From an uncultured Flavobacteriaceae bacterium (GTDB taxonomy: Bacteria; Bacteroidota; Bacteroidia; Flavobacteriales; Flavobacteriaceae), in NCBI GenBank assembly GCA_947502495.1, contig CANNAC010000009.1:1-64000 (forward strand): a stretch of DNA of 64,000 nucleotides, written 5' to 3'. Numbering within the stretch: the stretch's first letter is position 1; every line of letters starts with the position of its first letter. The position numbers were made by a program, and so were the translations under genes. A model generated the notes under the pieces. The model was not told where the DNA came from. It did not search any database and saw only the letters and a program-made list of their open reading frames with translations. Shown here piece by piece: positions 1,376-3,093 of the stretch.

Positions 1376-1669
1376 TTAAATTTTGTTTATTATTAAATAA
1401 TTTTGCTCTCTTGTAGCTGAATCGTATTCCTGAAACTCGCAATAAAAACATGTGATTAAAGTGTTATTATCTACTTTAATAAAGAGTTCTTTATTTAAGC
1501 TCCTATTTATTTTCTTTAATACTTTTCGACTTACAATAAAAAGTGTGTTCGCATGATTTGTTTCTACATTTTTTAATATTTGAGTTAGAAGTTTATCATT
1601 TATACATCTATCCCATTGTCTGAGAGTAAAATGGTCTGACTTTGAAAAGCCTGCTATAAAATGGCTCAT
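1376..1669 (-). CDS. Hypothetical protein in pVip operon
   Basis: 97-aa ORF; ATGA overlap with the upstream pVip stop codon (1666-1669) and 4 bp from the downstream HAD gene. Confidence 0.65.
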   Translation of the reverse strand: MSHFIAGFSKSDHFTLRQWDRCINDKLLTQILKNVETNHANTLFIVSRKVLKKINRSLNKELFIKVDNNTLITCFYCEFQEYDSATREQNYLIINKI

Positions 1670-3093
1670 ACTATACCTTCCTCCTTTCTTAAATCCTGAT
1701 TTTTAGTATACTCCCAATTATAAACACCTCCTCTATCTAAAAACTTACCCAAATCATAATCCATAGTTTTAATTGCTTCTTTTACACCTACTTCTAAAAT
1801 GGGCTTACTATAATTATGTGTGCCTTGCGCATTATCAAAAAAGCGTCCTGCTGGATCCACCATTACATAACTTCCTTTAATTTCATCATTAGACTCTGGC
1901 ACTATCGTTTTTACAGTCTTATGGGTATTTAAAAAATAATTATATTCTTCATCTGTTATTTTAAAGTCATCAATCTTATTATCATTTTGCCCAACTATTG
2001 GCAATACCTGTAATACTTTCCATCGTTTTGGTTTAGCGTAGGTCACAAATTCTGTTAGGTTGTCTTTATAGTTTACTTTATTAACTACAGTGTTAATCTT
2101 TAAGCCATATCCATACTTTTTAATATTATCTACTAAATCATAATAAAACGCTTTACTTAATGGTGTTTTCCCTGTAATTGCTCTACCTATTTTAATATTG
2201 TTTTCATCCTCTAAACTATCTACACTTACTGCAATCCAATCTAAGTAGGCTGTGTTCTCTTTTAAAAATGCATCTGTTAATTTACTACCATTGGTTACAA
2301 TCATGGTAGTCATACCAAGTTGCTTTGCTTTCTTAATTAAATTTGGTAACCATTTGCATAATAAAGGTTCTCCGCCTGCAAAGGTTATTTTTTCAAACCC
2401 TGCAGCAGCAATTTGCTCTACCACTTTTAAAGCATCTGCTTCAGGTAAATGTCCTTTTGGTAAAATGGTTTGTTTTACATCTTGAAAGGTTGCAAAGCAA
2501 AATTTGCAACGCATGTTACATGGTTCCCAAAGGTGAAAATTGATACTTGGTATGGCTATTACAGCATTACACTCTTGATAATGACTTATTATTTTTTGTG
2601 CCACTTCATTAGGTGTTAAATTATCTGTATTGATAACCAAATCATAATTATTATCTATTGTAAAGTCAACATTATAGCGGTTTAAAAAACGTGTTCGCAT
2701 ATTTTCATTTCTTAACTGAATTGCTTCAGGGCTTGTTACCTCATCTACTCTATTACCTAAACTTATTCTTTCAGATGCCTTTTGATCAGATACTTTTAAT
2801 AATACATTAAAAGCATTTTCAATAAAATGAAATCCAAGCCTATAATCAATAACTATATTATCTTTACTATTACATTCTGTTTTAAATTTCTCATCAATTA
2901 GATTGTCCAATTCCGGATGATTATTGCAATGTTTTTGAAATTGGTTAATGGTCATTCCATACGTTTTCATAGCAAATGCTCTAGAGTAATTTCCTACCGA
3001 AATGAATTCAAAGTTTAATTGTTCTTCAATAAGTTTACCTACTGTTGATTTTCCTGTTCCTGCAAATCCGCTTAATGTTATTTTATTTTTCAT
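1666..3093 (-). CDS. Nucleotide (CMP-like) kinase fused to prokaryotic viperin (radical SAM, pVip)
   Basis: N-terminal P-loop GFAGTGKST. C-terminal NFHLWEPCNMRCKFCF (CxxxCxxC), KITFAGGEP, RWKVLQVLPIVGQN, ESNDEIKGSYVMVDPAGRF and ILEVGVKEAIKTMDYDLGKFLDRGGVYNW align by eye with vertebrate viperin motifs. Confidence 0.93.
   Translation of the reverse strand: MKNKITLSGFAGTGKSTVGKLIEEQLNFEFISVGNYSRAFAMKTYGMTINQFQKHCNNHPELDNLIDEKFKTECNSKDNIVIDYRLGFHFIENAFNVLLKVSDQKASERISLGNRVDEVTSPEAIQLRNENMRTRFLNRYNVDFTIDNNYDLVINTDNLTPNEVAQKIISHYQECNAVIAIPSINFHLWEPCNMRCKFCFATFQDVKQTILPKGHLPEADALKVVEQIAAAGFEKITFAGGEPLLCKWLPNLIKKAKQLGMTTMIVTNGSKLTDAFLKENTAYLDWIAVSVDSLEDENNIKIGRAITGKTPLSKAFYYDLVDNIKKYGYGLKINTVVNKVNYKDNLTEFVTYAKPKRWKVLQVLPIVGQNDNKIDDFKITDEEYNYFLNTHKTVKTIVPESNDEIKGSYVMVDPAGRFFDNAQGTHNYSKPILEVGVKEAIKTMDYDLGKFLDRGGVYNWEYTKNQDLRKEEGIV

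Follow-up and report, generated by a model that had tools for sequence, protein, structure and literature searches.

Viperins are radical SAM enzymes for which the synthesis of 3'-deoxy-3',4'-didehydro (ddh) nucleotides is established, and they act at the triphosphate level. In animals, the expression of viperin (RSAD2) and of the nucleotide kinase CMPK2, a member of the thymidylate-kinase-like family, is inducible, in the case of viperin by interferon, and a coupling of the two proteins has been proposed. Bacterial viperins (pVips) have so far been studied chiefly as enzymes. The defence system Detocs, which is built on two-component proteins, passes phosphate to an effector protein. Approximately 15% of bacterial viperin genes adjoin a gene for a CMPK2-like kinase (2024 essay, PMC11249213), and hicA and relE genes also adjoin pVips, in arrangements proposed to be abortive-infection composites (Gerdes, PMC10865869). 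Single-chain joining of the two activities is already catalogued, as the 'Viperin-kinase fusion' model of PADLOC.

The window examined here, that is, the whole stretch of 64,000 nucleotides that was analysed, derives from an uncultured Flavobacteriaceae bacterium and carries such a fusion, with the kinase before the viperin (KV order), in a larger locus. The features of the locus and of the island beside it are as follows.

188-547, minus strand: 119-aa LIC10280-like protein, an uncertain member of the locus (NF050085, 29.7 of 100 bits)
961-1371, minus strand: NT5C 5'-nucleotidase of the HAD family, 136 aa (PF06941), 4 bp after p97
1376-1669, minus strand: p97, a 97-aa protein (open reading frame), its start overlapping the fusion stop by 4 bp
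1666-3093, minus strand: 475-aa fusion of kinase and viperin in KV order (open reading frame; PADLOC PDLC02905)
1711-2550, minus strand: viperin radical SAM domain, residues 182-461 of the fusion (NF038283; predicted structure against 6q2q)
2578-3093, minus strand: N-terminal nucleotide-kinase domain, residues 1-172 of the fusion (PF13189; conserved P-loop and arginines)
3157-3297, minus strand: small polar protein of 46 aa, encoded first in the apparent operon (dN/dS)
3394-3443, minus strand: three direct repeats of the TATC[CA]CAAA type with spacings of 21 and 20 bp, the proposed site of the LytTR regulator (conservation)
3510-4550, plus strand: membrane-anchored histidine kinase, 346 aa (weak PF06580; conserved boxes)
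4551-5306, plus strand: 251-aa response regulator carrying a LytTR domain for DNA binding (PF00072, PF04397)
5328-14043, minus strand: defence island (PADLOC PDC-S14 with DUF4357, type I restriction subunit)
within 5328-14043, minus strand: further genes of the same island (PDC-S24/Fic-like protein, specificity subunit, methyltransferase)

The enzyme matches the PADLOC models pVip-kinase (PDLC02905) and VakA (PDLC02911) near full length and in the same domain order. These models describe the enzyme alone, whereas the window locus adds the two-component, p97, and nucleotidase genes; in PADLOC, the histidine kinase, p97, and the nucleotidase had no match, and the regulator weakly matched unrelated candidate models only. 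With vertebrate RSAD2/CMPK2 the locus has in common the viperin fold and motifs and a linked nucleotide kinase, but CMPK2 is thymidylate-kinase-like while the window kinase is of the Cytidylate_kin2 type, and RSAD2 is controlled by interferon while control in the window would be by a two-component system. Detocs, a three-gene ATP-degrading system (PMC11249213), resembles the locus in placing two-component proteins within a defence locus; the window regulator differs in having a DNA-binding LytTR domain and the effector in being a viperin, and no Detocs model was among the PADLOC matches of the window regulator or histidine kinase. The pVip loci with hicA or relE (PMC10865869) are like the window in having a small extra gene beside the pVip, yet p97 has no significant match to a RelE-type or other solved fold. 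Finally, LytTR regulators of the AgrA/SilA type share with the window the combination of receiver and LytTR domains and direct repeats approximately two helical turns apart, whereas the window has three repeats, at 21 and 20 bp, and its genome just one target promoter; no gene for a peptide autoinducer was identified. The type of enzyme is known, then, and the control and gene content appear new: the two-component system, the promoter repeats, and the other operon genes are a more unusual part of the locus than the fusion. No paper linking viperin to LytTR proteins or to a response regulator was found in the searchable literature, nor anything on the control of bacterial viperins, and while such absence is not proof, the locus beyond the fusion appears undescribed.

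The kinase-viperin fusion and its relatives

The fusion is encoded by a single open reading frame that starts with ATG and has no interruption, and PDLC02905 matches it with 1018 bits over positions 1-472 of 474. As the original prediction, made from the DNA letters, had held, the radical SAM part belongs with viperins and not with MoaA: NF038283, the profile for prokaryotic viperins, scored 331 bits over residues 182-455 (cut-off 180), whereas MoaA models scored well under their own cut-offs (TIGR02666: 85.8 bits, cut-off 284). The top PDB sequence matches of the viperin part were animal and fungal viperins (E 2e-47 to 6e-43); MoaA followed at E 3.5e-12 in the same search. The radical SAM motif CxxxCxxC is present as CNMRCKFC (residues 192-199) and is invariant or nearly so in the alignment. 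An AlphaFold model of the fusion (pLDDT 85.9, pTM 0.67) matched mouse viperin with UTP (6q2q) at E 1.3e-24, with a TM-score of 0.88 by target over 294 columns, and this match to the viperin fold included the C-terminal region. That residues 182-461 are a viperin is virtually certain; the fusion would itself presumably make a ddh-nucleotide and act against phage.

The prediction that kinase and viperin are joined in one chain is borne out by the profile, PADLOC, and structure matches, although the fusion is of the type that PADLOC already lists. The motifs singled out at that time (GFAGTGKST, CNMRCKFC, and the C-terminal ILEVGVKEAIKTMDYDLGKFLDRGGVYNW) are present, the domain limits of 1-175 and 176-475 were roughly correct (approximately 1-172 and 182-461 were found), and the HMM and structure searches proposed for the two parts returned a kinase profile for the N-terminal and viperin for the C-terminal one.

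The N-terminal part matched Cytidylate_kin2 (PF13189) with 45.7 bits (cut-off 28), as well as AAA_18. The equivalog model for (d)CMP kinase, TIGR02173, scored 83.6 bits, under its cut-off of 102.1, and the kinase is therefore not filed as a CMP kinase. In an alignment of 122 related kinases, G9, G14, and K15 of the P-loop and R38, R85, R109, R115, and R128 are conserved at 98-100%, and D83-Y84-R85-L86-G87 and R128-N129 are near-invariant, so that the domain looks catalytically competent. With residues of catalytic type kept here and the radical SAM part grouping with viperins, neither of the outcomes named beforehand as contrary to the prediction was observed. That the arginines bind phosphates is read by motif analogy from adenylate and cytidylate kinases. 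Thymidylate_kin (PF02223) was not among the Pfam matches of the fusion at E 0.1; by its profile matches, the kinase is of the Cytidylate_kin2/adenylate-kinase type, cytidylate-kinase-like and not CMPK2-like. The parallel once drawn with CMPK2 is weakened as regards the kinase family. Because the nearest solved kinase is remote (E 4e-4), base preference is unreadable from the sequence, and the idea that the ddhNTP product might be read from the specificity of the kinase fails on the same ground. The kinase may use a substrate other than that of the viperin domain.

Among relatives, a kinase domain of the same family stands before viperin, as in the window, in 47 cases and after it (VK) in 67. 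A separate kinase gene lies directly downstream of viperin in seven cases, six of them in Weeksellaceae; an eighth lone kinase (locus L071) is without viperin. A few repeats of the same protein from different sources are contained in these counts. A quick tree of viperin domains, used solely for the spread of fusion types among pVips and with the position of mouse viperin left uninterpreted, implies at least 18 changes of architecture among KV, VK, separate, and none, where some entries counted as none may have a kinase that went unrecognised or lies beyond the contig end. Beyond this kinase family, a thymidylate-kinase-like kinase lies beside the pVip in Poribacteria (PF02223) and Latescibacteria, and a deoxynucleotide-monophosphate-kinase-like one in Myxococcota. 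Nucleotide kinases from several families have been joined to viperin again and again, which speaks for a functional coupling, and the presence of the same kinase family in both orders or as an adjacent gene argues that the chemistries of kinase and viperin are coupled.

As an outgroup for the viperin tree, the organism's own MoaA-like protein was tried and rejected owing to an absurd branch length of 10. In an Aequorivita locus (L008:5944-7229), the fusion seems broken, with the kinase part split from the viperin reading frame; the two-component pair is still there, as are the promoter repeats and the small protein.

The two-component system and the promoter repeats

Divergent from the fusion operon lies the two-component gene pair (3510-5306). 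The match of the 346-aa protein to His_kinase (PF06580) is weak, at 19.2 bits and under the cut-off of 25.2; residues of its H, N, and G boxes (H145, N149, E258, N259, H263, G264, and G310, the last followed by L311) are conserved among 16 relatives. The response regulator exceeds the cut-offs of both PF00072 (61.8 bits) and PF04397 (25.7 bits), and D9, D57, and K103 are conserved among 31 relatives, D57 being the phosphoacceptor.

Among Bacteroidota loci whose upstream flank spans 1.2 kb or more, relatives of this regulator occur within 6 kb of the pVip, mostly directly upstream of it, in 30 of 42 and in the window itself (approximately 31 of 43); they occur in none of 18 loci from other phyla. 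Among 390 genomes of the family, in which the best six candidates per genome were scored and a few relatives may have been missed, the regulator was found in four and a pVip in seven. All four regulator genomes were among the seven with a pVip, and in each the regulator adjoins the pVip; by a hand calculation that ignores the relatedness of genomes, the chance of all four falling within the seven is 35 in approximately 949 million, or 3.7e-8. In a seventh pVip genome (L088), the histidine kinase and the regulator next to the pVip are diverged. In a class-wide sample of 396 genomes, scored in the same way from the best six candidates per genome, no genome but the window's own gave a match at 1e-30. 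The dedicated association spans families and gene orientations. Roughly one in four of the Bacteroidota pVip loci examined lacks such a regulator in the vicinity, so that the regulator is not essential for every pVip, and many loci of Weeksellaceae and Flavobacterium have the regulator and no recognisable histidine kinase adjoining it.

Bacteroidota pVip loci that lack the two-component system often carry an upstream protein of 500-830 aa instead (L009:3977-5929, L016:3429-5912, L025, L027, L030, L035, L068, and L010). The one in L009 matches the PADLOC model 'Viperin-associated NERD' with 31 bits, and that in L016 has a weak Mrr_cat match together with TPR repeats. In nine Myxococcota loci (L055, L056, L058-L061, and L063-L065), the protein directly upstream of the pVip has hydrophobic N-terminal segments; the C-terminal part of the single one scanned matches sigma-70 region 4 (PF08281, 43.3 bits). 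These may be membrane-tied sigma factors and, as such, a different kind of dedicated pVip regulator.

In nine divergent loci, the triple repeat forms invariant columns between flanks that have diverged. The paired repeat pattern has its sole site in the 4.07-Mb genome of the window here (reversed-pattern control, 0) and is likewise unique in two related genomes, three genomes in all. LytTR regulators bind 9-bp repeats with a 12-bp spacer (PMC2766830), and the repeat spacing, as it fits such published sites, was counted in favour of a link between regulator and repeats. The window word is absent from loci in which regulator and pVip are co-directional; between regulator and pVip, these carry another word, CTTTCATTAC(TC), which keeps the 21/20 spacing. 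The ten-base core of this word occurs three times in locus L028, and with the word derived from L028 alone, the best triple of the whole locus lay at most 200 nt upstream of the pVip in 14 of 17 other co-directional loci, which are related to one another and hence not 17 independent tests. A link between regulator and promoter is, on these sequence patterns, very likely, and both an activator and a repressor would be compatible with them.

A second array of the window type occurs in a Gelidibacter locus before two other small open reading frames (L062:7810-8094), one of 47 aa (MSKSKSMSSTAAARIQSASAKSSNSGN...) and one of 35 aa with QLNPDH, which resembles the QLNPNQ of the window's small protein; one of the two also resembles the small protein that L083 has in this position. 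As the array is repeated before these frames, small proteins seem to be part of the regulon.

The island downstream of the regulator gene invites another reading, namely that the fusion is an ordinary, constitutively expressed pVip-kinase and that an unrelated circuit, lodged in the same place, accounts for the two-component genes and the repeats. Defence islands do collect unrelated genes, PADLOC candidate families as well as genes for type I restriction-modification adjoin the locus, and some pVip loci do without a regulator; against this, the only relatives of the regulator in the 390 family genomes (best six candidates per genome) are at a pVip, the association crosses families and orientations, and loci of the other orientation keep the 21/20 geometry although their word differs. 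A mere neighbourhood of this kind is accordingly judged improbable, and a regulator dedicated to the viperin operon is the reading preferred here.

Operon partners and the proposed working of the locus

Among 67 related loci, the closest fusions share an operon-like order of fusion, p97, and NT5C nucleotidase, with genes that overlap or nearly touch. The small protein evolves as a coding gene, its pairwise dN/dS being approximately 0.02-0.14 among seven loci. p97 was found in three of the 390 family genomes, always at a pVip. Its predicted model has a pLDDT of 86.6 and gave no significant structural match in the PDB, the match to HigB being weak (E 1.3, TM-score 0.29); an assignment as a RelE/HicA-type toxin was dropped, as a good model had retrieved nothing significant in that search. 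The same comparison bears on the proposal of a composite abortive-infection system at this locus, with p97 as an RNase-like toxin released or induced together with viperin. Such a role would suit a small protein that is tied to pVip loci and translationally coupled to the fusion, and hicA and relE genes have been reported beside pVips (PMC10865869), but the structural search gave no significant match and no antitoxin-like partner for p97 was identified, which makes the proposal a rather doubtful one.

The 136-aa nucleotidase matches PF06941 with 56.5 bits (cut-off 24.8) and has the HAD motifs (DxD, T, K, DD) as FIDMDGV, VTTP, K, and IIDD. It is conserved beside fusions in several loci. In the 390 family genomes, relatives above 200 bits occur only at a pVip, and more distant ones (approximately 80-115 bits) in many of the genomes. 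In L005 and L011 the gene is altered or truncated, and the nucleotidase may therefore be dispensable. If both enzymes use the same nucleotide, it would oppose the kinase. Conceivably, the kinase serves mainly to recycle ddhNMP set free by nucleases of phage or host, so that the inhibitor pool stays high, with the nucleotidase removing ddhNMP after infection; the NMP-kinase-like nature of the kinase and a monophosphate nucleotidase two genes later are in keeping with this, whereas the absence of, or damage to, the nucleotidase in many fusion loci is not, and recycling as the main role remains a tentative and less favoured reading. Given that viperin acts at the triphosphate level, a bare NMP kinase would need a further step, whether its role were supply or recycling.

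Relatives of the LIC10280-like protein lie near a pVip in seven loci, on either strand; its gene may belong to pVip loci as a rule or may simply be widespread in such islands.

The preferred reading of the whole is an inducible antiphage kinase-viperin operon under the control of its own two-component system, and taken together this picture is probable. In it, the membrane-anchored histidine kinase would sense a cue and phosphorylate the LytTR regulator, which would bind the triple repeat at 3394-3443 and switch on the divergent operon, binding and activation both being inferred. The small protein, the kinase-viperin fusion, p97, and the 5'-nucleotidase would then be made. The viperin domain would convert a ribonucleoside triphosphate to its 3'-deoxy-3',4'-didehydro form, by which phage RNA synthesis would be stopped. 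The fused kinase, presumably acting on a nucleoside monophosphate, would either supply the triphosphate for viperin, after the action of the cell's NDP kinase, or re-phosphorylate ddhNMP coming from RNA, and the 5'-nucleotidase may clear monophosphates.

The question of control becomes directly testable where a two-component system is private to one operon and has one target promoter, since regulator, candidate site, and target are identified. The inducing cue, once found, would show what the bacterium senses before it makes chain terminators that may harm itself. It is moderately likely that many Bacteroidota viperins are inducible by infection or stress through a private histidine kinase and LytTR regulator acting on a three-repeat switch that serves the viperin operon only. 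If so, kinase, viperin, nucleotidase, and two small proteins would be induced together, and the arrangement would be a bacterial counterpart, independently arisen, of the control of viperin by interferon.
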